The notes beneath the pieces were generated by a model. The model ran no database searches. It was not told the origin of the DNA and worked only from the letters and a program-made list of their open reading frames with translations. The position numbers and the translations under genes were made by a program. From a virus, in the IMG/VR virus record IMGVR_UViG_3300047383_000125, positions 1 through 31,047 of that record: a DNA stretch of 31,047 nt. The stretch is one strand, 5' to 3'. This document shows positions 11,342-29,587 of this stretch, in pieces (the stretch's first letter is position 1; every line of letters begins with the position of its first letter).

Positions 11342-14300
11342 ATGCCAGAATTGATTCATACGTTTCTCAAGGGTAAAATGAATAAAGACCTTGATGAGCG
11401 TTTAGTTCCAAATGGCGAGTATAGGGATGCGTTAAACCTAGAGGTAGCTACATCCGAAGGCTCAGACGTCGGTGCATTACAGACATTAGTTGGTAATGTT
11501 CAGATGGTCAATCGTACTTTAAACGATATAACTACGCTGCATACCACATGGGCAGCCTCTGGACTGGCTTATATACCTGCTGACGCTAAATGTATAGGTA
11601 CCGTAAAAGATGCAACCACAGAAAAGATATATTGGTTTATTACATCACAGAGCGTAGATGCTATTGTTGAATATGACCAAATAAGAGATGTTGTATTCCC
11701 TATTTTAGTTGATAAAAACGGTATACTTGGGTTTAATGAAAACTTTTTAATTACGGGTGTAAACATACTCGAAGGGTTTTTATTTTTTACAGATAACCAA
11801 ACTGAGCCTAAAAAAATTGAAATAAAGAAATTTAAAGAGGGTTCATCTGATTTTGCTACACACACACAAATATTCGGCAGAAACTTCATAGAAGCTGATA
11901 TTACTGTTATAAAAAAATCACCTCTTTTACGACCAACTATATATAAAAAGAATACTGTTAGGGATGGTGAGATAGAAACAACTACTACATTTGAGTTTAA
12001 CACACTGTCTACCGACCCAGAAGATGATCCTGATGAAACGATCTCTATGGACTTCGGTACTGTTATAACTTTAAACTGGACAAACGCAGTAGACTATATA
12101 GCAGGTGACTTTTTATTATTAACAATACAAGATCCCGACGATAATTTCTTAAGAGAATTCCAAGCTAGAGTAAAAGTTACACAAGTTGTTTCAGAAGCGC
12201 AGGCTATATGTGAATTACAAAGCGTAGGTGAGGATCTACCCGCGGGGCCACAAGGGTTTGATGTAGAACTGGAACAAGACGATCCATTATTTGAGTTTAA
12301 ATTTCCTCGCTTCGCATATCGTTATAAGTACGATGATAACCAATTTTCCACATTTTCTCCTTTTACAGAGATAGCATTTATACCAGGTGATGAGTTTGAG
12401 TATACAGGTGTTGATGGTTATAACTTGGCAATGACTAATAACATACGAGTCTTAGAAGTAAGGGATTTTATTACGCCTAACATTCCTGATGATGTAATAG
12501 CTATAGATATACTTTACAAAGAATCAAACAGTACCAATGTGTATCGTGTTGACACTATAGAAAAAACTGCGCCAAATTTACCTGGCCAATCATATAATCA
12601 ATGGAATGATACAAGCTATCAAGAAGGCGGGGCAACAGGTTATAGCGGTAGAATTAAAATAGAGACAGAGCTTATATCTTCTTTATTGCCGTCTAACCAA
12701 TTACTAAGACCTTATGATAACGTTCCTAAAAAAGCGTTGGCTCAAGAAATTACTGGAAATAGAATTATATACGGTAACTACACACAAAACTTTGACATGG
12801 TTGACTTCGCTGACAGTGAGGTTATACCAAACTTTGAGTTTAGTATTGTGCATGATCCTACAAAAAATGAAGATATCATTGAAGACCCGGATAACCCAGG
12901 GCAATTTATAAATATATCATCAGATCCCGACGGCTCTACGCCGGTGCCATCTTTAAAGTCTATGCGCACATATCAAATGGGTGTGGTATATTTAGACCAA
13001 TACGGTAGGCAAACGCCGGTATTTACAAATGATAGCGGTGGTAGATCATTAGCGAAAGAATTTGCAGACCTATACAATACTATAGAGATAGGTATGCTTT
13101 CAAACCCGCCAAAGTGGGCAACACATTACAAGTTTTATGTAAAAGAAACATCTAACGAGTATTATAACTTAGCATTAGATAGATTTTATCTGCCAGAAGA
13201 TGGTAGTGTATGGTTGTCTTTTCCGTCTGCCGACAGGAATAAAGTCGACGAAGAAACGTTTTTGGAGCTTAAAAAAGAGCATGACAACAATTCGTTTATT
13301 GAAGAAACCGCTAGATATAAGATATTAGCTATATCAAACGAAGCGCCAGATGCTGTTAAAATAAGAAGACACCAAGCTGGTAGGCAAACTACAGAGTTTA
13401 CGGGATCGGGATACCCTCAAGTTAACAAAGGGTTTTTTGAAATACCCGAAGATGATTTTGACGGTAAAGAAGACGGTACGGGATCCGGTGGTGGATTAGC
13501 TGATTTAAACAAAGAGAACAATCTTTCTTGTAGAATACTTTCTGGTTCAAATATATCTGATTATTTTGAAATAGAATGGATAAAAAAACAAGGTAATATA
13601 TATAGAATTCAACTTAGATTCCCTACTGATGAAAGCTTAGACTTTATACCAGAAGGACAAACAGGTATACCCTTAGACATAGCAATATATCAATCTAGAT
13701 CTGAAAATAAACCTGAATATCAAGGTAGATTTTTTGTAAAAATATACAAAGACAACGCTTTAGAACAACGTATAATTAAAAAAGCTGAAGACGCGCAGTT
13801 AACTATAGAATACCAAAAAGAAGTAGCCTATATACAAAAAGGCGGTAAGAGTAGTTTCTGGAGAGATACAGCCCCGGATAATAGTAAAGGATGGTTTTGG
13901 GATAAATCATCTCCATTAGATGTAAGAAGAAGAGCGTCTCCTGATGTTAAATATCAGCGTGGTAATCAAGACGATCGACCATATCAAGGATTAGGTATAG
14001 ATGTAGGATCTAGAAATTTAACCATATCATTTCACGGATTTGGTAATCCCTGGAAACAATCTAAAGCTTTCTACAATAGAAAAGGTATTTGGTGGAATTG
14101 GCCAACTAATCAACCAAGCGCTGGCCATCATATAGGTTTTGCTAAAGCGTTAGACACAGCAGGTAGTATATTTAGAATTACAGACGATCCAGATAAAGAG
14201 CTTGATTCTCATACTTACAATATAACAATGAGCTATCGCTCGGCGTACTGTGTTGCTAGTAGAAGAACTGGTAGACATGGTTCTGGTAAATATGGTAGCC

Positions 14301-17062
14301 GACGAGTTGTAAGATGGAATATAAAAATAGATAAGCCTATAGCTACGTCTGTAGGTTTACCACCTATTAATACTGGACAGGCAAACCCGACAAGAACAGG
14401 TGTAGAATTTTTAAGACTATATGCGGTAGATGCGGATACATACACATCTAATAATCCTGCTATATTTGAAACTTACCCAAAGGAAGCTGTTGATTTAGAC
14501 TTATATTATTCAGCTAGCGATATATATGAAATACAAAATGCCGGTAGCACTATGGCTGCTCACCAACCATTACAAAAACTAGATTGGTTTAATTGCTATT
14601 CTTTTGGGCAAGGCGTAGAATCTGATCGTATACGTGATGATTTCAATGCAACCCGTATAGACAAGGGTCCTGTTGTTTCAACTGTTTTAGACGAGGCGTA
14701 TGGCGAAGAAACAAAAGCCACAGGTTTAATATTCTCACAAATATTTAATTCTACTTCTGGTATTAATAGGTTAAACCAGTTTATAGCTGCAGAACCAATA
14801 ACTAAAGATTTAAACCCGTATTATACAAGTGTTCAAAAGCTGCACTCAAGAGATACTGACTTAATTGCTTTCTGTGAAGATAAAGTTCTTAAGGTATTAG
14901 CAAATAAAGATGCGCTATTTAATGCTGATGGTAACACAAACATTGTAGGTAATACAGCCGTGTTGGGGCAATCAATACCTTTCCTTGGTGAATATGGTAT
15001 ATCTAAAAACCCAGAGAGCTTTGCTACTTATGGTTTTAGAGCATACTTTACTGATAAAAACAGAGGTGTTATTTTAAGATTATCACGAAATGGGTTAGAA
15101 GAAATTTCATCCGCTAATATGCGTGATTTCTTTGCTGATAACTTACACTCATCAAGCGTGTTATTAGGCTCATACGACGACGATAAGGACGTTTATAACC
15201 TTACGCTTAATAATCTTACAGATGAATGGAAAGATAAGCTTAAACTTAATTATTTTAACCCGTCATTAACTCAAACTGGAACTACTGTTTCCTTTAAAGA
15301 AGACGTTAAAGGCTGGACTTCTCGTAAAGATTTTATACCTGAAGGTGCTATATCCTTAAATAACAAATATTACAGTATTAAAAATGGTAAGATTTGGGAG
15401 CACGGGGCAACAAGCGCTACAAGAAATAATTTTTATGGTGTTCAATATGACAGCTCGATTAGATTTCTAATAAATGACCAGCCAAATATTGTTAAAAAAT
15501 ATAAAACATTAAATTATTCAGGTACAGAATCTAGGGAGTATAGATACCAGGTAGAAGGAAAGCCAGAGGAGCAAACATTTAATTTAGCTGAATTACAAGC
15601 TAATCCAAATTATAATCCAACAAACGAGGTGTTTACGCCTGGTTGGTATACAAGTTTAATACAAACAAATCTTCAAGAAGGTAGCGTTAAAGAGTTTTTG
15701 GATAAAGAAGGCAAATACTTTAATTACATAAAAGGTATTGGCACGCAATTTAGTACTAATTTAGATAACAATTTAGATGCCGCAGAGTTTTCAATGCAAG
15801 GTATTGGACGTGCGGAAATATCAGGGGATACTCAAAGTTCATTTGTTTTACATGTGGAAGTTGACCCGTCTTGTTTTGTGGCAAGAGTTGCGCCTTATGT
15901 TATGAATGGAAGTTTAACCTCTATAGAAGATTGTACTACTTGTCCGACAATTGACCTTGCTAATTTAACTACAGACAATAATATACCAGCAGGGGTTATT
16001 ACATATGATATTACATCGGATAACACAAATAATGGGGCATTAACTATAAATGGCAGCATTGTTACTTTTACTCCAAACGCAAACTTTAACGGTGACGCTG
16101 GGGCATTTAACTTTACGGCAACTGATACCTTTAATGGATCACAACTTGTAAGCAATGTTGGTACAGTTACAATTGCGGTTGATCCAGTCGCAGATATTCC
16201 TTACTTTACAACAACTCCACCAACTACAGCGTATGCTATAGGTGATACGTATATTTATAATGTCGGAGTAGCTGACGCAGATCATACTGGGGCGGAGTTA
16301 ACTATAACTTCAAGTAATATACCAAGCTGGTTGACACTTACTGATAACGGAGACGGGACCGCCGTTGTAACAGGCACAGTCCCAGATGCCCAACCATACT
16401 CTTTTGATTTGGTTGTAAGCGATCCGGATAATCCGCCTAATACAGCTACACAAAATGTAACCGTAGAAGGTTTAGCTAATTTACTAACTAACTTAGACAT
16501 AATAGGTAGGTATGTTTCTACTAACGAACCACAAGGGGTATGGGTTGACCCTAGCACTGGGGTACAAACAACGGTATGCGCATCTCCAGCTTCAGGTGGT
16601 CATAGTTGCAGCAGGGGTACATTTAATATATTTGCAGCAGCGGATTCTGGTAACGCTGTAGAAATTGGTAGAGTTCATATTTCTAACACAGGCGGCGGTG
16701 GCTCAAACTATGTTGATAGTGATGGCAACCCAACACCCGATTTAGGTGCGCCAAGTGGAAATGAAAAATACTATACGCCACAAGGGCAGGTTAGAAGCAC
16801 GAGCGATAGATATAGTGCTTTCAAAATAAGTGAAGCGGATGCCCAGACATTAGCGCAAAACTCAAGCAATGGTCAGATTACGTTTTTTATGGAATGTGGT
16901 ACATTTAATACTGGTACTACAACCGCTAATTGCCACAGCACCGCTCTTTGGTTTAATGTATTTGACGGCAACGCACAACAAATACTTTGTACGGCATTTA
17001 CAACCGGAACTTTAATAACAATTGACATATATACAGGTCAACCCGTAAATCCAATACCATAA
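11342..17062 (+). CDS. Giant tail tube / nozzle protein with C-terminal Ig-like adhesin domains
   Basis: A 1906-aa virion protein. Residues 11-35 (KGKMNKDLDERLVPNGEYRD and following) and the next repeated beta strands look like a tail-nozzle or stabilising protein of the T7 gp12 kind. A second propeller-like block lies around 1160-1270 (LIAFCEDKVLKVLANKD, GEYGISKNPESFATYGF, YFTDKNRGVILRLSRNG). The C-terminal part is adhesin-like. Residues about 1534-1614 form a cadherin-like/tandem-95 unit (SIVTFTPNANFNGDAGAFNF). Residues about 1619-1706 form a putative Ig (He_PIG) unit (SNIPSWLTLTDNGDGTAVVT). Residues 1707-1906 are a Cys-containing terminal domain. Several Cys are clustered near the junction (CFVARV, DCTTCP). 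The Ig-like units may bind host surface carbohydrate or protein. The stop overlaps the next start (TAATG). Confidence 0.75.
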   Translation: MPELIHTFLKGKMNKDLDERLVPNGEYRDALNLEVATSEGSDVGALQTLVGNVQMVNRTLNDITTLHTTWAASGLAYIPADAKCIGTVKDATTEKIYWFITSQSVDAIVEYDQIRDVVFPILVDKNGILGFNENFLITGVNILEGFLFFTDNQTEPKKIEIKKFKEGSSDFATHTQIFGRNFIEADITVIKKSPLLRPTIYKKNTVRDGEIETTTTFEFNTLSTDPEDDPDETISMDFGTVITLNWTNAVDYIAGDFLLLTIQDPDDNFLREFQARVKVTQVVSEAQAICELQSVGEDLPAGPQGFDVELEQDDPLFEFKFPRFAYRYKYDDNQFSTFSPFTEIAFIPGDEFEYTGVDGYNLAMTNNIRVLEVRDFITPNIPDDVIAIDILYKESNSTNVYRVDTIEKTAPNLPGQSYNQWNDTSYQEGGATGYSGRIKIETELISSLLPSNQLLRPYDNVPKKALAQEITGNRIIYGNYTQNFDMVDFADSEVIPNFEFSIVHDPTKNEDIIEDPDNPGQFINISSDPDGSTPVPSLKSMRTYQMGVVYLDQYGRQTPVFTNDSGGRSLAKEFADLYNTIEIGMLSNPPKWATHYKFYVKETSNEYYNLALDRFYLPEDGSVWLSFPSADRNKVDEETFLELKKEHDNNSFIEETARYKILAISNEAPDAVKIRRHQAGRQTTEFTGSGYPQVNKGFFEIPEDDFDGKEDGTGSGGGLADLNKENNLSCRILSGSNISDYFEIEWIKKQGNIYRIQLRFPTDESLDFIPEGQTGIPLDIAIYQSRSENKPEYQGRFFVKIYKDNALEQRIIKKAEDAQLTIEYQKEVAYIQKGGKSSFWRDTAPDNSKGWFWDKSSPLDVRRRASPDVKYQRGNQDDRPYQGLGIDVGSRNLTISFHGFGNPWKQSKAFYNRKGIWWNWPTNQPSAGHHIGFAKALDTAGSIFRITDDPDKELDSHTYNITMSYRSAYCVASRRTGRHGSGKYGSRRVVRWNIKIDKPIATSVGLPPINTGQANPTRTGVEFLRLYAVDADTYTSNNPAIFETYPKEAVDLDLYYSASDIYEIQNAGSTMAAHQPLQKLDWFNCYSFGQGVESDRIRDDFNATRIDKGPVVSTVLDEAYGEETKATGLIFSQIFNSTSGINRLNQFIAAEPITKDLNPYYTSVQKLHSRDTDLIAFCEDKVLKVLANKDALFNADGNTNIVGNTAVLGQSIPFLGEYGISKNPESFATYGFRAYFTDKNRGVILRLSRNGLEEISSANMRDFFADNLHSSSVLLGSYDDDKDVYNLTLNNLTDEWKDKLKLNYFNPSLTQTGTTVSFKEDVKGWTSRKDFIPEGAISLNNKYYSIKNGKIWEHGATSATRNNFYGVQYDSSIRFLINDQPNIVKKYKTLNYSGTESREYRYQVEGKPEEQTFNLAELQANPNYNPTNEVFTPGWYTSLIQTNLQEGSVKEFLDKEGKYFNYIKGIGTQFSTNLDNNLDAAEFSMQGIGRAEISGDTQSSFVLHVEVDPSCFVARVAPYVMNGSLTSIEDCTTCPTIDLANLTTDNNIPAGVITYDITSDNTNNGALTINGSIVTFTPNANFNGDAGAFNFTATDTFNGSQLVSNVGTVTIAVDPVADIPYFTTTPPTTAYAIGDTYIYNVGVADADHTGAELTITSSNIPSWLTLTDNGDGTAVVTGTVPDAQPYSFDLVVSDPDNPPNTATQNVTVEGLANLLTNLDIIGRYVSTNEPQGVWVDPSTGVQTTVCASPASGGHSCSRGTFNIFAAADSGNAVEIGRVHISNTGGGGSNYVDSDGNPTPDLGAPSGNEKYYTPQGQVRSTSDRYSAFKISEADAQTLAQNSSNGQITFFMECGTFNTGTTTANCHSTALWFNVFDGNAQQILCTAFTTGTLITIDIYTGQPVNPIP

Positions 17063-18951: not shown

Positions 18952-19590
18952 ATGATACCAGTAGCAGCAGCAATGGGCGCCGTAAAGGGCTTAACCGGAA
19001 TAGCGGGTGGTATTATAGGTAGTGGAAAAAGAAAAAGAGAAGAAGCAGCGGCTCAAGAAGAGTACGATATGTTCAAAACTCAATACCAAGAACTTGACAC
19101 ATCTAACCTATACGCTAACTTAGAAAATACTATGGAAGACTTAACTGTCGACCAAAGAGCAGCGGAGTTCCAGTTGCAAGCGCAGCAACAGGGGCAAGCT
19201 AATATTATGGATCAGATGTCCGGAGCAGCTGGTGGGTCTGGTATAGCCGCGTTGGCGCAAGCGATGGCTAACCAACAAACGCAAGGAGCGGCACAAGCAG
19301 CGGCAAGTATAGGGCAGCAAGAAAGATCTAACCAAATGGCTAAGGCACAAATGGCGGGGCAATTACAATCTCAAGAAGCGCAAGGAGCTGAACAAGCAAG
19401 ATCATTAGAATATAGTAAAACTAGCACACAACTTGGAATGGCACAACAAAGATTAGGTGCCGCTAAACAAGCAAGAGCAGCCGCTACTCAATCTATTATG
19501 GGCGGTGTTGGTGGTTTGCTCGGAGCTGGTGTAGAAGCTGGAGCGGCCGGAGCTTTTGGAGAAGGAGTCGCGGGAATCTTAGGCGGATAA
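18952..19590 (+). CDS. Putative internal virion / DNA-ejection protein (T7 gp14 position)
   Basis: A 212-aa protein rich in Ala, Gln and Gly. Hydrophobic Gly/Ala segments sit at both ends (residues 1-25, VAAAMGAVKGLTGIAGGIIG; and about 182-212, MGGVGGLLGAGVEAGAAGAF). Between them is a long amphipathic Gln/Ala helix (residues 30-180). This composition is typical of small ejection proteins such as T7 gp14 or P22 gp7, which enter or cross the host membrane at infection. It is first in a run of three core-like genes of increasing size. The start follows AACAATAAAATT. Confidence 0.65.
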   Translation: MIPVAAAMGAVKGLTGIAGGIIGSGKRKREEAAAQEEYDMFKTQYQELDTSNLYANLENTMEDLTVDQRAAEFQLQAQQQGQANIMDQMSGAAGGSGIAALAQAMANQQTQGAAQAAASIGQQERSNQMAKAQMAGQLQSQEAQGAEQARSLEYSKTSTQLGMAQQRLGAAKQARAAATQSIMGGVGGLLGAGVEAGAAGAFGEGVAGILGG

Positions 19591-19600
19591 ATAAAATATT

Positions 19601-20815
19601 ATGGCAAAAAAAGCACAAAGAAATTACGGCGCTGACTTAAGTTTAGTTAGAGGCGAGGGAGCAATGAGGCAGGCTGGCGGGTTTCAACCGCTTATGCAAG
19701 CTTTTGACGCACCTATGCAACGCCTACAACAAGCCGCTAAAGAAAGACAAGCGAGAGAGCAACAAAGAAATAATAAAGTAGAGAGTTATATTTCTGCTTT
19801 AAACTCTAATATTGATGTTACAGCGTTAACTGAAACTGATCAAAAAGCGGTTAATCAATATTTAATGGGTGTTAAAGACGAATATGCACAAGCAGCAAGC
19901 GCTATAGTAAACTTTAAACCCGGCACGCCTGAGTACATGGAGCAGCTTGATATTATGAATGGCGTTAAAAACAGCCTCGGTAATTTGAAGGGGCAGCTTG
20001 ATGGCTATCAAGAGTCTAAAGGAAATTACATGGACTCCTTTAAAGATCAGTCTGCTGGTAATAATAGTTTACAGTCAGACAATGCGGCAAACATATTTAC
20101 AGGTGAAACACCTTTTACAATAGGCACAGGTGGGAATTTGTTCTTTCAAGGGCAAGATGGTACTAATATGGCTTATAAAGATATTAAGATGCCGTTTAAA
20201 AAAGACTACAAAACAGCAATGCAATATAATGATTTGTTTACACCTATTTATAACTCTGGTACATACGATTCAACTAAACAAAAGGTTTTTGAAGATAGAA
20301 TTAGAGCAATGATGTCTTCTAATCCAGACGGAATGAAGTCTATTATTGCTGATGAATTAAGTAGCTTTGGCGAATACCAAGATCTTATGCCATTGCTGGA
20401 TGATCCAGCTAAGCTTGAAGAAGTTACAGAGGCGTTTGTCCAAAGATCTAGTGAGGCAGCGCGTAGTGCGGCGGCGGAAGGTAAAGCTAAAAAACAAACA
20501 ACAGATGGCGGTTATCAACCTAGAATTGCAAGAGTTAAAGAAAATGCCTACAAAGGCCCAAATGGTACCGTATATAAGATAACCACATTATCTAATAATC
20601 AAAAAATAATTGAAGATGATTTTGGTAATGTTTATGAAGGTGATGTAAGCAAGTTAACCCCAGCAGGAGGCGGTGACGAAACTACTACAACTACCACCAC
20701 TCCGCCTAAAGAGGAAATAAACATGCAACTTGTTCAGGGGATGATGGCCCAATGCAAAATTGATGAAACTACCGCAATAGCACGTGTTAAAAACAAACAA
20801 TACGATTGTCCATAA
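19601..20815 (+). CDS. Putative internal core protein (T7 gp15 position)
   Basis: A 404-aa soluble protein, helical and Gln/Ala/Lys-rich in its first half (QPLMQAFDAPMQRLQQAAKE, residues 28-47). A more mixed second half (YKGPNGTVYKITTLSNNQKI) follows. Near residues 357-368 is a Thr-rich linker of seven consecutive Thr, separating a short C-terminal helical module (MQLVQGMMAQCKIDETTAIA) that ends with Cys-Pro. There is no known enzyme motif. The function is inferred from position between the small and giant core genes. The Thr linker and terminal module may be a docking tag. Confidence 0.6.
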   Translation: MAKKAQRNYGADLSLVRGEGAMRQAGGFQPLMQAFDAPMQRLQQAAKERQAREQQRNNKVESYISALNSNIDVTALTETDQKAVNQYLMGVKDEYAQAASAIVNFKPGTPEYMEQLDIMNGVKNSLGNLKGQLDGYQESKGNYMDSFKDQSAGNNSLQSDNAANIFTGETPFTIGTGGNLFFQGQDGTNMAYKDIKMPFKKDYKTAMQYNDLFTPIYNSGTYDSTKQKVFEDRIRAMMSSNPDGMKSIIADELSSFGEYQDLMPLLDDPAKLEEVTEAFVQRSSEAARSAAAEGKAKKQTTDGGYQPRIARVKENAYKGPNGTVYKITTLSNNQKIIEDDFGNVYEGDVSKLTPAGGGDETTTTTTTPPKEEINMQLVQGMMAQCKIDETTAIARVKNKQYDCP

Positions 20816-20830
20816 TAAAATTAAATAAAT

Positions 20831-23800
20831 ATGTTCAAAATAAAAATAGACGGCGTTGAGTATGAAATTAATGATTCTAACATCGGTGTTTTTCAAAACG
20901 CTTATGGCGATTTAGAACAATACAAAATAGAAGAAAATACTTTTCAACAAGACCCTGCAAGTGCGGAGACAAATGTAGGGTCGAAAAACAATACGGTCTC
21001 CAATTCGGAAAATGGTTTATTGGAATCAAATCAACCACCTGAAAGATATATTAATTATAAACGTAACGGTAAAGACGCTTCAATGTCTGAATCCGAATAT
21101 AATAATTTCTATGCAGACTTAGAGGACAAAGGTAGATACCCTGCGGAATTTGATGTTTATGTTGCAAAAACTTTTCCAAATACTAAAATCCAAACGACAA
21201 ACTTTGACGAGGGCGCGATGCTTGACGAGGTTGTTGTTAAAGCAGAGTTATCAGACGAAGTAAAACAAGCTAAAAAAGACAGCACAGAGCTTACTGCAGT
21301 TATTGAAGCTGAAACACCTGAAGCAAATTATGAAGAGATCGCAGGGGATTATTTTACTGGATTAAACGACGATGGTCAAATAACTGGTATGAATAGACCT
21401 CAATTTTTTCCTACATTAAGAAACTCCGACGGATCGCCCCAAATGTGGCAAGGTAAGGAAAGAAAAAGTGGATTTTCAGAATATAAAAATGATTATGATA
21501 CTGATTTAAAAAACCATTTAGGCCCTGTAAAATACAAACAGTATATAACCGCCAAAGAATTAGCTGAAGCAAACGGTGAAAATCTTACAAAAGAAAACGT
21601 AAACCAGTATATTAGTTTAGAATTAATTCAAGATAACAAAAACGACAAGACTATAGACTCTGTTGTAGCTAGTAAAAGAAGTAAGGCTGCTGAAAATTAC
21701 ACAAGAGACATAGGCGGATTTTATGTTACTGATGAAGAACAAAAAAGACAGGATTTATTAGAGCAATTTACTGGAACTGATGAAGTTGTTACAAAGAAAA
21801 ATACTGCTTTATTAAATGAAAAAGAAAGAGCGCTTAGAGATGCTAGAGATTTTGAAGCTAAATTCGGAAGGCCATTAGTTAGAACTGAAAAACTTCAGGG
21901 TAGAACATATACCCCATTTAACAGAGAGCTTACCCTTAATAAAGTACAAGAGGGAGAAGAAAAAAGAATAGCAAAAGAAGCGGGTGAGATTGAAAGTGCA
22001 GTAAAAATATTTGATACTCAAGCAACAGAGTTAAATAATGTACAGGATGAAATTAGAAACTACAATGTAGAACAAGATAATTTTAACAATCCTGAGGAGG
22101 TTGCTTTTAGAGATAGCTTATTTGATCGCCAAAGGGTATTAATGAACGAATTACAAGCTGATCAATTAATACTTCAAGCCCGAGCTGATAAACTTACCAA
22201 TGATTTAAATGTGTATAGCACGACAAATGTGGCTGACGCCGCTTTAGTTAAGTCTTACCAAACATCGGATTTGCTAGCGAACACATGGGAAAGCGCTTTT
22301 TTAGGTTCAGCAGCCCAATTAGGGGGTGCTATAATTTCTCCTTTTGATGGTGGTATAACTTATGAAGCTGCAACTAATTATAATCAAAGACTGCAAAGTG
22401 AGGCTCAAAAATATTTACCACAAGCTTTAACAAGCGATGATGACTCAAGTGCAGCGCAGTATTTTGGGGACATGCTCATCAGGAACTCCCCTTCAATAGC
22501 TGTGGCTGCTGCAACAATGGGTGCAGGTGCGGGGCTAACCGGCGCTGCTAGGCTTGCCGCTATAAGACAAGCATCCAATGCTTCAATGGGTATATTCTTT
22601 ACTATGGAAGCTGGTGGGCAGTTATCTAATTTAGAGATTCAGCAAAGAGAAGCGCCAAAAATGATCGCTGCTTTAAATAAACAAATAGAAGAAGCAAAAG
22701 CTAACGGTACACCCCTAAACGAAATAAATAAATTAGAGGCAGATAAAGAATATCAAGAAAACATATTAAGCTTAAACGCTTTTCAAAAAGGGTTTAACAG
22801 TACAATTTATGGTGGAACTGCCGCTTTAGCTGAAAGACTAGGATCTTTAGGTTTTGTTAAAAACTTTCAAAAATATTCAAGAGCCATAGGCGGTAACACG
22901 TTAAGAAAACAATTCGGTGAAACCTTAGGCACTAATATAAGTAAAGGCTTAGGTAACGTTACTGCTGTTGGGGCTATAGGCCCAGGTATAGAATTTATTG
23001 AAGAAGGTGCGACATTAATTGCGCAAAATTTAAGTGATAACTTAATTTTTCAACCGGAAAATCCTAAAAGTTTAATTGATGGTTTAGATGGCGAATTTTT
23101 TAGAAATACGTATGTAACATCTTTAGCTATTGGTGGAGCGGGTGCAAGCCAAAACGTTATGACTGCATTAAACAATGAAGTTAAAACTAGAAAGCAAGCT
23201 AGACAAGAAAATGAAATACGCGATAAATTAATAGATGTATCAAATAAGCTAAACACATTAGACGGCAGAACAAAGGAAGCTAGAAATTTAAAACAAGAAA
23301 GAGACAATCTAATAAGTGATGCTGCAGATTTAAATACAGCAATACCTTTAAATTTAAAAGGTCTTACTGGCAGTGAAATAAATAGAGTCTTTGAGAATGC
23401 TGCAAGCATTAGAAAATTAAAATACCAAGCTTCCCAATTAGATTTAGCTAGTTTTGATGCAAGAGATCGTAGAGAATTCGAGCGATTAAAAAATGCGTCT
23501 CAAGTTTTATATAATGAAAGCCAATCAATATTAGGTAGATCAGAAGCTGAAATAGAAAAGTTAGCAAAAAACACACCAAACCCACTTGTCACGGAGGTTA
23601 ACTTTCGCAGGTTTAACATGTTTAAAGAAATCGCTAAAGAAACTAAAGGTGTTAATGTCATAGATATAAATAACGAGGAGCAGTTTAACGCTTACTTAAA
23701 AGAAAACAAACTTGATGGCAAAAAATATAGCTATACGGCTATGAACGAAGGTAATAACAGCGCAGCTCAGGTTAACAATGATATATTAATTTTTAATGAA

Positions 23801-26800
23801 ATCGCCGCAAGAAATATGCAACAACCGGGTATTGACGGTGAGGTTGCTTCGGCTTCTCCTTTGCATGAGTTGGGCCACTGGCAAGTTAAACAGCAGGGTA
23901 TAATAAAAGACAACAAAATTGTTAGCGCTTCTAACGATATGGTTAGTAGTATTATAAATGATGTTAGGTCTAGGTTTAATAAAGGAAGCATATCTAAAGA
24001 AGCTTTTGATAATTTTAATGCTAGAATTGCCCTATACAAAGATGTAGATGTTAAAGGAATAGACGCTGACGAGTTATTGCAATTAGTTTCAGACTTTACA
24101 GCAATAGGCGTTTTGCCTAAAAGTAGTTTTGGTAATATATATGGGGCAAAAACATTTGTAAACAGTATACTTAAAAAAGTAAATGGCGACTATTCTCATT
24201 TCTTTAAAATTAATTCACCGAGCGATGTGTATGCGTTTGTTGCTAACTGGCAAAATAGAGCATTAGTATACCAATTACCTGAAGGGGAAGAAAAAGAGGG
24301 TGATAAAATTAAATCATCAAAGGCTGTAGAGAAGGTAAGACAAAGACTTGAATCAATACCATTAGAACAATTACCCTCACGCGCCAGTCAAAACATTATA
24401 GCTAATGAATTATTTGGCATGGTAGATGCACAAATACGTAATAGACTTAATTTAGATCCAAACGTAAGAGAAGAGCTACAAGCTGACGTAATTGCAAGAG
24501 TATATGAAGCACAAGAAAATACTAAATGGGACGGTAGGGGCAGCTTATATGGCTTTATAAACGGCCGTATCGCTAAGCGTATACTAGATGCTTTAAGAGC
24601 AAATCCAGATTATCTTGATGTTGTAACAAAACAAGAGCTTACTGGTTTAGAAAAAGCTTCTGAAGTTGTAGTCGATGATGTACAAACAGCAAAAAAAGAA
24701 AAGCCTAAATTTAGAAACTTATTACAAAGCAAAGTATTACCCGCTGACGCTTTAGAATCAGTACAAAAAAAATTGCTTAGTACAATAAGAGTGCTAAAAT
24801 CAAAACTAGGCGCCGACATTTCTATAAACAAAACAGTTACTCCTTTGGTAGCTGAGATTAAAAAAGAAATGGGTAAGCAGGCTGATATTGAATTTAAGAA
24901 AAGGTTAGGCTCAAAGAAAGATGGCATACTAAGAAAAAATTATCTTAGATTTAAAAAACCTATATTAGAAAACATGACAACCACTTGGTTGATGGGCGCT
25001 ATGCCATTTGCTGTTCAAAAACAAGTTAATGGTAAGTTTACATCTGACTGGCAGGGCAAAAAGATTGACAGAGAAACGGTTGATACAGATAAAGCGGGTA
25101 GAACATCAGGCGCTGATATAGTTAGAAGATTACCTAATATTGCAGATAAAGTTACTGACGAGCAATTTTTGTCTTACATGTTTAAAGACGGAGCTGTTAT
25201 TCGTGGTCGTAAAGAATCTTTATCGAAGGCATTAGCCGAAGAGCTTGCGTTTGATTTATTTAATAGTGAATTACAAAAGCCAGACAGTGAATTAAGAAAA
25301 GCATTTGTAAATAATCAAGCAGCATTAGGCGCTGAACTTGCAGATAACTTTGTTCAAGAAGTACAAAAAGATACAGAACGAGGTAATATAAAATTTAGTA
25401 AAGGATTAGCTACATTAACACCTGCAGAAAATGAAACTTTTAGAGATGGATTGCCAAAACTAAAAGAACTTATAGTAGGCATGGACAATGATTTTGGTAA
25501 AACGCCAACTGCAATTAAAAAAGTTCTGCAAAACACATATGGCGATAAATTTACTAAAAAACAATATGACGGTATATCTAAGCAATTTTTTAACTTATTA
25601 AAACCGTTAAATAAATCATTCCCTAAAAAGTATGTTAATGTAAGTGAACAAGAACTAACAGATTATGTAGAGCAAGTTGCGCAAGATGTAGATGGCAATG
25701 CTTCTATACAATTATATACAGGTGCTAGCGATTCTATTAAAAATTTATGGAACACAGGCACGAACGTTTATATAGCCCAGGAGGCTATTGAAAATGCGTT
25801 AAGCGAGTTACCTATAGAGACTGTTGTGGCTTTCTTTAGCGGTACTTTTGCTAACTCTGGCAAAGTTGGAATGCGTAACTTTAAAGACGCTAATGAAAGT
25901 TTTAGAGCTGATTTTTACGGAGGTGAGGCTCAATGGCTTCCGGCTTTAAAAAGGATGTTCCCGCAGCTTGAAAGTATACAGAAAAACGGTGACATTGTTT
26001 TAAAAAACGGTAAAGTTATAAAGAAAAAGTTTACAGCAACAGGCAGCGTTACTAAAGGCATGCTTGAAGCAAACTTTAATACAGATAAAGATATTAAAAA
26101 TGCAACAGCTGCTTGGGAATTTACTACAGCTGTCGTTAGGGGTATTAAAAATGAAAACCCCGACATACAAGCTATGGTTTTAGCGGCAATGAATAGCGGA
26201 ACTAATACAGCTTTAAGAGTAGCTGCTCCTGTATTATATAGAACAGCGGGTTTTAATTCATTAGATAAAGATGATTATAGATACGAGCATGCTTTACCTG
26301 CTAGACGGGTTCTTTTTGACATGTACAAGTCTATCGTGAAGGATGATAAGTCTATAAGCCTACAAGCGCTTAAAAACGATTATAAGGTCGCACTAATACC
26401 TAAGACAATGGATAAGGTTATTGGTGATCAAGGTTTAGGACCTATAGCAGTTGCAGGTTATGTTGCTGGGCAAACGCCATGGTACAGTCGCTATTATAAT
26501 ATACTAACGAGAGGAAAAGTACAATATGCTTTGGAATCTTTAGAGAATGGAGAAATTATTGGTCAAAATTATGCAGACTATTTTAATTCCACGTCTGATC
26601 CATTAACGGTTAAAACAGACGCGCCAGCTGTAGTAGAAGCGAGTATAGCATATGAAAACGCTTTCAAGCTTTCAAAAGGCTTAAACTACGGTATAAATCC
26701 TAAAGGTATAACTGTGTTAGACTTTGACGATACCGTGGCGATATCTAAAAGCATGGTAATAGTTAAAATGCCAGTTCAAGACAAAGAGATATTGGACATA

Positions 26801-29587
26801 GCTGCTAGAAGAAAATTTAATAGCACTGTATTTAAAGACCTTCCTAGCTTTAAAAGATCATTTGATAATCTTTCAGAAGAACAAAAGCAAGAAGTTTTAA
26901 AAGAAGTTCCTGGCCCAACTAAAAAAATTACACCAGCTGAGTTTGCAGCTGAATCGGTTAACTTAGAAAACCAAGGTGCTACCTTTGACTTTAGCGAGTT
27001 TAACAAAGTGGTTAAAGGCAGAAAAGGTCCATTGTTTGATTTAGCATTAAAAAGACAGGAAAAGTTTGGTAATGACAATATATTTATACTTACCGCAAGG
27101 CCGCAGGAATCAGCTTTAGCGATACAAAAATTTGCTAAAGGTTTAGGTTTAGATTTAAAGCTAGAGAATATAACAGGGCTCGCAGACGGAAGGCCAGAAG
27201 CAAAAGCCGAGTGGATGGTTGGGAAAGTTAACGAAGGATTTAATGATTTTTATTTTGCAGACGATCATTTTAAAAATGTTAAAGCAGTACAAGACACTTT
27301 AAGTTTATTTGATGTAAAATCTGATGTTCAACAAGCTAAAATTAAATTTAGCAAAGGTCTAAATAAAAGTCTTAATAAAATGATTGAGCGCAACAAAAAT
27401 GTAAAAGCCGAGGCTAATTACTCAAAAGCGGTTGCGCGAAGAAAAGGAGCTAATAAAGGTAGATTTAAATTCTTTTTACCATATGGAGCAGAAGACTTTA
27501 GAGGTTTAACATCTTATGTTTTAGCCGGCAAAGGAAAGCAAGGAGATGCAGATCAAAAGTTTTTTGAAGATAATTTAGTTAATCCTTATGTAACAGGTGT
27601 AGCAGCAATGGAAAGAGCCAAGAGAGCATTAAAAAATGATTACGCGGCACTTAGAAAAATGTTCCCCACAGTTAGAAAAAAATTAGGTAAGAAAGTGCCA
27701 GGATTAGAATATACTTATGACCAAGCTATAAGAATTTATTTGTATAATAAATCCGGGTTTGAAGTGTCTGGTTTATCTAAGCGTGATTTAAAAGCTATAA
27801 ACAAATTTGTCGAAGGTGATGCTGATGTAAAAGCTTTTGCCGATGGATTACAATTAATAACTAAAAAAGACGAATGGGTTAAGCCTAATGAGTATTGGGA
27901 TGTGAGTAGCATATTACAAGATATAAACGAAATATCCGAAAAAGTTAGCAGAAAAGAATATCTTGCTGAGTTTATTGAAAATGTTGACGCTGTATTTGAC
28001 GAGGCTATGCTAAATAAACTTGAAGCGGTATATGGGACTGGTTACGTTGAAGCTTTAAATAATATTATAAGCAGAATGAAGTCTGGTGTAAACCGACCTA
28101 GCCAGCCTGGTAAATACGAAAGACAATGGTTAAACTGGGTTAACAATTCTGTTGGTACTATAATGTTTTTTAACAGAAGATCCGCTGTGTTACAGATGTT
28201 ATCATTTGCTAACTTTGTAAACTGGAGCGACAACAATCCGTTAAAAGCGGGCATTGCTTTTGCTAATCAGCCGGCTTATTGGGAGGCATGGTCTAAAATA
28301 TTCAATTCAGATAAACTAAAAGAAAGACGTGGAGGTTTAAAGTCCGACGTGCAAGAACAGGAAATTGCGAATCAAGCTAGGAATAGTAAAAACAAAGCAG
28401 GTGCTATAGTTTCTTATTTATTGAAAATAGGTTTTACCCCTACACAAATAGCAGATAGTATGGCTATTGCGACCGGAGGTGCTACGTTTTTAATAAACAG
28501 GACTAAAACATATACAAAACAAGGCATGTCAAAAGCGGATGCCGAAGCTGCAGCGTTCGAAGATTTTAGTAAAATATCAGATGAGACACAGCAGTCAGGT
28601 GACCCTATGTTAATATCCGCTCAGCAGTCCAGCCATTTAGGGCGCCTTGTATTGGCTTTCCAAAATACGCCGATGCAATACACTAGATTAATGAAAAAAG
28701 CCGGCCAGGATCTTATAAACGGCCGTGGCGACTTTAAAACTAATGTTAGTAAGATTGCTTATTATGGTTTTATACAAAACTTAATATTTAACTCATTGCA
28801 ACAAGCTTTATTCGCTATGATACCCGGTTTTAGTGATGAAGAAGATGAAGAAGATGTTGATAAAAAGCTAGATAAAAAAGAGTTAAAAATACTGAATGGA
28901 ATGCTTGATTCTATATTGCGAGGCTCTGGTTTGTATGGTGCAATAGCATCTACGATTAAAAACGCATACATGCGCTACGAAAAAGAAGAAGAGAGAGGGT
29001 TTACCGCTGATCATACTTATACATTGTTGGAGCTTGCAAACATATCGCCACCTATAGGTTCTAAGCTTAGAAAAGTGTATGGGGCAATACAAACAAATAA
29101 ATTTGACAGGGGTATTATAGAAAAAAGAGGTTTAGAAGTTTTAGACAAGCAAGGTAACTTAAATTTAAGCCCATCATATCAAATAATAGGCGGTCTATCT
29201 TCAGCATTTCTTAACCTACCATTAGACAGGGTTGTATCTGAAATTAATGCTTTAGCGGAGGCGGTTGATGATAGAAACACTGCATATCAAAGAATAGCTT
29301 TGTCCTTAGGCTGGAGGACATGGGATGTTAGCGCTAAGAATGAATATCACGATTTTCTTAAACTAGCTATACAGGAAGAGAAAAAAGATGCTTCAAAGAA
29401 AAAAAGAGAATATAATAAACTTGTTGCAACGCAAAAGAAGTTTGATAAACTAGCTGCGATGACTCCTGATGAAAAACGAGAGTACTTATTAAAAGAAAAA
29501 GCAAAGCGATCTGCTGCAGCAAAAAAAGCAGCGGCTACAAGAAAGCGAAACAAAAGAGTAAGAGATTCAATACTAAGATCAAATTAA
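20831..29587 (+). CDS. Giant multidomain internal/ejected virion protein (T7 gp16 position)
   Basis: A single 2918-aa ORF without interruption. Modules, with rough residues: 1-140, small beta N-terminus ending MLDEVVVKA; 540-790, Gly/Ala-rich amphipathic or membrane-active segments (SIAVAAATMGAGAGLTGAAR); about 930-1120, zincin with HELGH at 1012-1016 and E1081 as a candidate third ligand; 1188-1258, sigma-70 region 2-like; 1526-1945, unknown, with YEHALPARRVL near 1818; 1960-2150, HAD phosphatase (D1964-D1966, T2088, K2125, D2144-D2145); 2180-2918, helical C-terminus containing RLVLAFQNTPMQYTRLMKK and a Lys/Ala tail. KFSKGL or a close variant separates modules at 1521, 1946 and 2172. Gene order points to the largest core protein, ejected with the DNA. 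The domain mix resembles the polyvalent proteins of phages and plasmids. No lytic transglycosylase is seen. Confidence 0.8.
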   Translation: MFKIKIDGVEYEINDSNIGVFQNAYGDLEQYKIEENTFQQDPASAETNVGSKNNTVSNSENGLLESNQPPERYINYKRNGKDASMSESEYNNFYADLEDKGRYPAEFDVYVAKTFPNTKIQTTNFDEGAMLDEVVVKAELSDEVKQAKKDSTELTAVIEAETPEANYEEIAGDYFTGLNDDGQITGMNRPQFFPTLRNSDGSPQMWQGKERKSGFSEYKNDYDTDLKNHLGPVKYKQYITAKELAEANGENLTKENVNQYISLELIQDNKNDKTIDSVVASKRSKAAENYTRDIGGFYVTDEEQKRQDLLEQFTGTDEVVTKKNTALLNEKERALRDARDFEAKFGRPLVRTEKLQGRTYTPFNRELTLNKVQEGEEKRIAKEAGEIESAVKIFDTQATELNNVQDEIRNYNVEQDNFNNPEEVAFRDSLFDRQRVLMNELQADQLILQARADKLTNDLNVYSTTNVADAALVKSYQTSDLLANTWESAFLGSAAQLGGAIISPFDGGITYEAATNYNQRLQSEAQKYLPQALTSDDDSSAAQYFGDMLIRNSPSIAVAAATMGAGAGLTGAARLAAIRQASNASMGIFFTMEAGGQLSNLEIQQREAPKMIAALNKQIEEAKANGTPLNEINKLEADKEYQENILSLNAFQKGFNSTIYGGTAALAERLGSLGFVKNFQKYSRAIGGNTLRKQFGETLGTNISKGLGNVTAVGAIGPGIEFIEEGATLIAQNLSDNLIFQPENPKSLIDGLDGEFFRNTYVTSLAIGGAGASQNVMTALNNEVKTRKQARQENEIRDKLIDVSNKLNTLDGRTKEARNLKQERDNLISDAADLNTAIPLNLKGLTGSEINRVFENAASIRKLKYQASQLDLASFDARDRREFERLKNASQVLYNESQSILGRSEAEIEKLAKNTPNPLVTEVNFRRFNMFKEIAKETKGVNVIDINNEEQFNAYLKENKLDGKKYSYTAMNEGNNSAAQVNNDILIFNEIAARNMQQPGIDGEVASASPLHELGHWQVKQQGIIKDNKIVSASNDMVSSIINDVRSRFNKGSISKEAFDNFNARIALYKDVDVKGIDADELLQLVSDFTAIGVLPKSSFGNIYGAKTFVNSILKKVNGDYSHFFKINSPSDVYAFVANWQNRALVYQLPEGEEKEGDKIKSSKAVEKVRQRLESIPLEQLPSRASQNIIANELFGMVDAQIRNRLNLDPNVREELQADVIARVYEAQENTKWDGRGSLYGFINGRIAKRILDALRANPDYLDVVTKQELTGLEKASEVVVDDVQTAKKEKPKFRNLLQSKVLPADALESVQKKLLSTIRVLKSKLGADISINKTVTPLVAEIKKEMGKQADIEFKKRLGSKKDGILRKNYLRFKKPILENMTTTWLMGAMPFAVQKQVNGKFTSDWQGKKIDRETVDTDKAGRTSGADIVRRLPNIADKVTDEQFLSYMFKDGAVIRGRKESLSKALAEELAFDLFNSELQKPDSELRKAFVNNQAALGAELADNFVQEVQKDTERGNIKFSKGLATLTPAENETFRDGLPKLKELIVGMDNDFGKTPTAIKKVLQNTYGDKFTKKQYDGISKQFFNLLKPLNKSFPKKYVNVSEQELTDYVEQVAQDVDGNASIQLYTGASDSIKNLWNTGTNVYIAQEAIENALSELPIETVVAFFSGTFANSGKVGMRNFKDANESFRADFYGGEAQWLPALKRMFPQLESIQKNGDIVLKNGKVIKKKFTATGSVTKGMLEANFNTDKDIKNATAAWEFTTAVVRGIKNENPDIQAMVLAAMNSGTNTALRVAAPVLYRTAGFNSLDKDDYRYEHALPARRVLFDMYKSIVKDDKSISLQALKNDYKVALIPKTMDKVIGDQGLGPIAVAGYVAGQTPWYSRYYNILTRGKVQYALESLENGEIIGQNYADYFNSTSDPLTVKTDAPAVVEASIAYENAFKLSKGLNYGINPKGITVLDFDDTVAISKSMVIVKMPVQDKEILDIAARRKFNSTVFKDLPSFKRSFDNLSEEQKQEVLKEVPGPTKKITPAEFAAESVNLENQGATFDFSEFNKVVKGRKGPLFDLALKRQEKFGNDNIFILTARPQESALAIQKFAKGLGLDLKLENITGLADGRPEAKAEWMVGKVNEGFNDFYFADDHFKNVKAVQDTLSLFDVKSDVQQAKIKFSKGLNKSLNKMIERNKNVKAEANYSKAVARRKGANKGRFKFFLPYGAEDFRGLTSYVLAGKGKQGDADQKFFEDNLVNPYVTGVAAMERAKRALKNDYAALRKMFPTVRKKLGKKVPGLEYTYDQAIRIYLYNKSGFEVSGLSKRDLKAINKFVEGDADVKAFADGLQLITKKDEWVKPNEYWDVSSILQDINEISEKVSRKEYLAEFIENVDAVFDEAMLNKLEAVYGTGYVEALNNIISRMKSGVNRPSQPGKYERQWLNWVNNSVGTIMFFNRRSAVLQMLSFANFVNWSDNNPLKAGIAFANQPAYWEAWSKIFNSDKLKERRGGLKSDVQEQEIANQARNSKNKAGAIVSYLLKIGFTPTQIADSMAIATGGATFLINRTKTYTKQGMSKADAEAAAFEDFSKISDETQQSGDPMLISAQQSSHLGRLVLAFQNTPMQYTRLMKKAGQDLINGRGDFKTNVSKIAYYGFIQNLIFNSLQQALFAMIPGFSDEEDEEDVDKKLDKKELKILNGMLDSILRGSGLYGAIASTIKNAYMRYEKEEERGFTADHTYTLLELANISPPIGSKLRKVYGAIQTNKFDRGIIEKRGLEVLDKQGNLNLSPSYQIIGGLSSAFLNLPLDRVVSEINALAEAVDDRNTAYQRIALSLGWRTWDVSAKNEYHDFLKLAIQEEKKDASKKKREYNKLVATQKKFDKLAAMTPDEKREYLLKEKAKRSAAAKKAAATRKRNKRVRDSILRSN

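Follow-up and report, generated by a model that had tools for sequence, protein, structure and literature searches.

The window is the whole stretch of DNA that was analysed, the 31,047 bases of IMG/VR virus record IMGVR_UViG_3300047383_000125. It contains a giant ORF encoding 2918 aa without interruption from an ATG start. This gene is the third of a 212 - 404 - 2918 aa series that follows the tail genes and closes the virion operon, and so occupies the position of a gp16-class ejection protein, as the initial annotation had proposed. The features of the region are the following.

18952..19590, + strand: 212-aa Gly/Ala/Gln-rich protein, first gene of the triad, in the position of T7 gp14 / DEV gp73
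19601..20815, + strand: 404-aa protein, second gene of the triad, in the position of T7 gp15
20831..29587, + strand: giant ORF, 2918 aa, probable polyvalent ejection protein
22241..23350 (aa 471-840), + strand: N-terminal core, also present in the final virion gene of flavophages in culture
23621..24280 (aa 931-1150), + strand: zincin-like metallopeptidase domain, with invariant H, E, H and E (77/77) and a zincin-like strand-helix order
23864..23878 (aa 1012-1016), + strand: HELGH active-site motif, with the third ligand Glu1081 at 24071-24073
24338..24646 (aa 1170-1272), + strand: sigma-70 region-2-like helical module, from profile, fold and motif
24683..25435 (aa 1285-1535), + strand: module M1300, with a DWQGKKIDR...TSG signature, in 34/49 dereplicated giants
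25748..26650 (aa 1640-1940), + strand: module M1650, with near-invariant Glu1819-His1820, in 33/49 dereplicated giants
26678..27325 (aa 1950-2165), + strand: cargo slot, here occupied by a predicted HAD phosphatase of the PNKP 3'-phosphatase type
27326..29380 (aa 2166-2850), + strand: all-helical C-terminal chassis, the most conserved part of the protein

Phage, gene order and the link to the virion

The giant gene is encoded together with a portal-terminase packaging system, among the late genes, as PHROG matches identified the terminase (1.1e-165) and the portal (1.8e-153). The nearest cultured or named portal relatives were Manatee Spring ctfjg026 (53%), Maribacter Panino (46%) and the Flavobacterium elemo phages (42%), followed at greater distance by Cellulophaga phi38:1 (37%) and phi18:3 (30%) and by Tenacibaculum Gundel_1 (24%). 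All of the cultured portal relatives have flavobacteria as hosts. The phage is marine, and its host is probably among the Bacteroidetes. A GroES-like co-chaperonin is encoded at 583-1182 (PHROG 2.1e-15), with GroEL present in relatives, and the virion protein of 1906 aa encoded at 11342-17062 has homologues in phi38:1 (gp97) and phi18:3 (gp114). No tRNA genes were found in the window or at the loci of nine relatives.

Full-length copies of the giant ORF with 100% identity were present in 3 further IMG/VR records, and in most of the other 27 loci retrieved from IMG/VR the identity was 36-68%. When the C-terminal module alone was used as query, at least 585 related stretches were recovered from the same collection. 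In genome assemblies the matches were limited to four contigs. Three came from MAGs with a Bacteroidetes or Crocinitomicaceae label and the fourth from a Maricaulis MAG, and all are read as phage contigs binned together with their hosts. The family is large and phage-only.

The T7 gp14-15-16 and DEV gp73-72-71 ejection proteins follow an order parallel to that of the triad (PMC10925440). Homologues of the 212-aa protein were located upstream of the giant gene in 21/21 relatives, and its profile matched Gundel_1 gp72, a virion structural protein (3e-8). Homologues of the 404-aa protein directly adjoin the giant ORF on its upstream side in relatives, and no family match was found for this protein. 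The small-medium-giant order was also observed in phi38:1, phi18:3, elemoA and Gundel_1.

The family shares the N-terminal core, in the broader interval of aa ~130-850, with the cultured flavophages: elemoA matched the relative L026 (3e-17) and phi38:1 gp101 matched the relative L029 (1e-13). In turn, phi38:1 gp101 matched phi18:3 gp123 (3e-21), which is annotated in its record as a virion protein by MS/MS. Packaging in virions is therefore well supported at the level of the family, and for the 2918-aa protein itself it is very probable, through a transitive link to phi18:3 gp123. The homology of the N-terminal core to Panino and ctfjg026 was weak, and no claim is based on it.

Single-sequence searches of the giant protein gave no match beyond a weak one to HP1451_C (0.029), which was taken as chance, as was the one match of a whole-family profile against the PDB, to a designed protein. 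Neither Pfam nor PHROGs matched the giant protein to T7 gp16, and neither detected a transglycosylase in it, in agreement with the initial annotation. The 'membrane-active' module proposed there was not recovered, as every 19-residue stretch of the protein had a mean hydropathy of 1.32 or less.

Modules of the giant protein

The HELGH zincin noted initially was confirmed in a stronger form. His1012, Glu1013, His1016 and Glu1081 were invariant in 77/77 distinct homologues; no other position of the domain was fully invariant in this set, and two others exceeded 80%. An HExxH motif occurred in 0.05% of shuffles of the giant protein, and the five sequences that failed the zincin profile still had one, at aa 1281-1299. 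Strands and helices are predicted in an order that fits the description of the zincin in PMC5512222, and a second structural look returned a weak zincin fold match (Z ~5). Autoproteolytic release of domains is among the proposals made for polyvalent proteins (PMC5512222). By analogy, the giant protein might be the putative substrate of its own zincin.

A module resembling sigma region 2, also proposed in the initial annotation, was supported as a fold and questioned as a sigma factor. When 35 slices were compared with Pfam, Sigma70_r2 was the family matched most often (5 members, best 0.0039). A profile-profile comparison with genuine sigma region 2, represented by 14 sequences taken from MAGs, gave 67% probability over 75 columns, against 0.6% or less for nine control modules. 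In the predicted structure, aa 1179-1259 aligned to residues 368-447 of sigma70 (Z 5.3, 3.5 A); TFIIB cyclin folds scored higher (Z up to 7.4), and such Z values lie within the chance range for helical bundles, so that weight is placed on the combined evidence. The profile match was obtained in 21/49 members. The DLxQE core-binding motif kept its acidic ends in 18/20 and 19/20 sequences and had lost its Gln in 19/20, and Pfam scans of the whole giant proteins listed no sigma region 4 up to an E of 1. A sigma-70 region-2-like fold thus has moderate support, and the module was not filed as a sigma factor, an identity that is doubtful given the loss of the core-binding Gln and the missing region-4 match.

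A sigma-70-like protein also exists on its own, ~250 aa long and with a possible region 4, in a near-identical longer relative and in 12/15 others (one such locus, L156, is at G001:C1:51967-52116, outside the window). Derivation of the giant's module as a recent copy of this standalone protein found no support (0.2% probability). RpoB was not found in 16 relatives, and 13/16 encode the separate sigma-like protein, which makes use of the host RNA polymerase likely; the phage probably needs it. A search of the 16 genomes for a single-subunit RNA polymerase domain with PF00940 was empty, as were its controls.

At least one conserved-looking module of unknown kind had been suspected initially. Two such modules, M1300 and M1650, are without a family match; no claim of new folds is made for either. 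M1650 may be another enzyme. The model covering aa 900-1945 (mean pLDDT 66, pTM 0.37) returned only chance matches to helical repeats in Foldseek, and PDB sequence searches with the sigma2, HAD and zincin slices gave nothing useful.

The C-terminal chassis can be added to these conserved modules, with a mean column identity of 70% in alignment A4. A model of aa 1935-2860, comprising the HAD domain and the chassis, reached a mean pLDDT of 82.4 and a pTM of 0.69. Among predicted viral proteins its matches included many giant ones from phages, annotated as large polyvalent protein, ART-PolyVal, MuF, nuclease or methylase (E ~1e-12 to 1e-4, TM on query ~0.2-0.5, identity 10-15%). LPD-named proteins were included among the fold matches of the chassis region, and no Pfam LPD match was found in the giants. 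As the model used for this comparison included the HAD domain too, the match was assigned to the chassis on account of its length (~800-1100 columns). From this modelling, the chassis is read as a putative shared packaging or delivery domain. The resemblance to polyvalent proteins that was first seen in the domain content was borne out, also at the fold level.

The cargo slot and its exchange

Between M1650 and the chassis lies a slot that holds a HAD domain, a P-loop kinase, both, or, in close relatives, 0-8 residues. In the window it holds a HAD domain with the motif DFDDT at aa 1964-1968. The catalytic set (D1964, D1966, T2088, K2125, D2144 and D2145) was invariant in 45/45 sequences. The HAD hydrolase of the initial annotation was retained under a closer name, that of a PNKP 3'-phosphatase-like domain. 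PNKP filled all but one of the first six places in the fold list (T4 Pnkp phosphatase, Z 11.8; T4 Pnkp, 11.7, 11.2 and 10.6; Pnkp1/Rnl/Hen1, 11.5), with other HADs beginning at Z 10.9 and 10.4, so that the lead of PNKP is less than 1 Z unit. The PHROG polynucleotide kinase family matched 24/33 HAD slices (best 3e-7), and in whole-genome searches this match fell inside the giant frame. The NCBIfam DNA 3'-phosphatase (TIGR01664) was matched in 6/33 relatives (best 2.8e-4), and the window's own copy had no match to it. Generic HAD family matches were also seen, and a PDB sequence search with the HAD profile found no PNKP chains. The domain is most like a PNKP 3'-phosphatase, its activity being predicted.

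With the kinase profile, PNKP kinase chains (5.5e-5) ranked ahead of a zeta chain (3.4e-4) among PDB chains. The top kinase chains are deposited as 'metallophosphoesterase', and we take them to be the Clostridium thermocellum Pnkp kinase domain. The PHROG polynucleotide kinase was matched at 4.9e-11, and Pfam zeta toxin was matched in 4/17 members (best 1.7e-12). The slot kinase is predicted to be PNK/zeta-like. In two distant lineages, L010 (15524-16642) and L119 (aa 2157-2525 of its giant ORF), the kinase is inserted inside the HAD domain, directly after motif I.

At least 12 changes of slot state are required on the chassis tree, and 25/89 rows have neither HAD nor kinase. Between L010 and L029 the kinase identity is 80.7%, whereas that of the flanking modules is 21-64%; with L006, a member without kinase, the L010 modules share 69-94% identity. 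The kinase cassette has therefore moved independently of its surroundings.

The genomes of cassette-free members were searched for PNKP genes at other sites, and none were found. End healing is accordingly not essential, as these members are without it. An RNA-ligase-like ORF (L151 and L152; PF09414, 4e-7, below the cut-off) is located ~2 kb from the standalone sigma-like gene in only two relatives (L020 and L021), both cassette-free. As this gene is confined to two cassette-free relatives and scores below the cut-off, a complete repair pathway is unsupported.

Proposed action and comparison with known systems

The giant ORF probably encodes the third ejection protein of a podovirus of Bacteroidetes, with the architecture of a polyvalent protein. 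The protein would be packed in the head with the 212-aa and 404-aa proteins and would exit via the tail before the DNA or together with it, while the N-terminal core would help to form a passage across the envelope. The zincin may then cut the chain, most likely its own, leaving the domains free inside the cell. The slot would deliver an enzyme for healing nucleic-acid ends, a 3'-phosphatase here and a 5'-kinase or both in relatives, and ends produced by host nucleases (cut tRNA, nicked phage DNA) would be repaired before phage gene expression. The sigma2-like module may engage the host RNA polymerase. The more specific idea of virion-delivered end healing, in which a self-cleaving carrier would bring in a phosphatase and/or kinase of PNKP type against the cuts of host defence nucleases, with the cassette swapped between phages at a fixed slot, is put forward tentatively.

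It is quite improbable that the protein acts in a purely mechanical way, as an inner-membrane channel and DNA ratchet of the kind proposed for T7 gp16, with the added domains as fillers or degenerate remnants. The homologues of phi38:1 and phi18:3 (1691-1935 aa) are evidently sufficient without zincin or HAD profile matches, that of phi38:1 has neither an HExxH nor a HAD motif, and the empty slots in the chassis tree speak against the cargo being needed. However, the complete catalytic sets of the zincin and the HAD domain are invariant while the rest has diverged, for which reason both are read as active enzymes, and the cassettes move between lineages. A cargo directed against the host, with a zeta-type UDP-GlcNAc kinase and a nucleotide or sugar phosphatase altering host metabolism or cell-wall synthesis, is a doubtful reading. 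The zeta toxin and generic HAD matches point to it, and zeta-like kinases are reported in polyvalent proteins (Iyer et al. 2017, PMC5512222), but the PNKP kinase chains outscore the zeta chain, the PHROG match is to polynucleotide kinase, and the HAD domain that shares the slot is itself PNKP-like.

It also appears unlikely that the sigma2-like module is a working specificity factor that directs the host RNA polymerase to early phage promoters on entry. The profile and fold matches to sigma70 region 2, the retained acidic ends of the motif and the lack of a phage RpoB in the 16 relatives are consistent with such a role. Against it stand the lost Gln, the missing region-4 match, the restriction of the profile match to 21/49 members and the separate sigma-like protein of most relatives.

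Polyvalent proteins form a class known largely from computation, and this family provides a clean test case, with one chassis, one slot, four observed states and invariant catalytic residues; N-terminal relatives exist in culturable flavophages. RNA and DNA end repair is known from T4 as a counter-defence that is produced once infection has begun. Should the PNKP assignment prove correct, the family would suggest that end repair can be carried in the particle, and the phage may arrive with tools ready for work.

The initial annotation had the anatomy largely right, with the exception of the membrane-active module, but its 'undescribed system' belongs to a class already described by Iyer et al. 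2017 (PMC5512222). In common with the proteins of that survey, the giant protein combines disparate domains in one late-gene polypeptide of a portal-terminase phage, has as its hub a zincin in which the HExxH is complemented by a Glu of a later helix, and has a helical C-terminal fold common to proteins named polyvalent. At least two unrelated activities in one chain, by which the class is recognised, are represented by the zincin and HAD catalytic sets, and by the kinase in relatives. Unlike those proteins, it lacks a Pfam LPD match and has one defined exchange slot. The words 'sigma' and 'phosphatase' do not occur in the main text of the survey, which names neither a sigma region-2-like nor a PNKP 3'-phosphatase-like module (PMC5512222). 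What is new here is the exchangeable slot with HAD, kinase, both or none.

N4 gp50 (PMC12633501) and DEV gp71 (PMC10925440) are likewise giant third ejection proteins after a small and a medium one, with an N-terminal domain, an HExxH domain and a large all-helical C-terminal domain. The zincin precedes the payload here, whereas it follows it in those two proteins, and no RNA polymerase domain was matched by Pfam in the giants, unlike in N4 gp50, the virion RNA polymerase. Among the flavophages, phi38:1 gp101, phi18:3 gp123, elemoA and Gundel_1 gp74 share the gene series and the N-terminal core. The first two differ in having no zincin and HAD profile matches, and elemoA in carrying DUF3293. 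Gundel_1 gp74 has an HExxH and a chassis match (7e-10), but its giant (L039:9876-17324) carries another cargo, a probable GNAT acetyltransferase at aa 896-966. T4 Pnkp has the same HAD fold and catalytic set, and a kinase of related type occupies the same slot in relatives of the window. In T4 Pnkp the kinase precedes the HAD domain, whereas in this family, where the two occur together, it is inserted in the HAD domain after motif I, and the whole is part of a giant protein.
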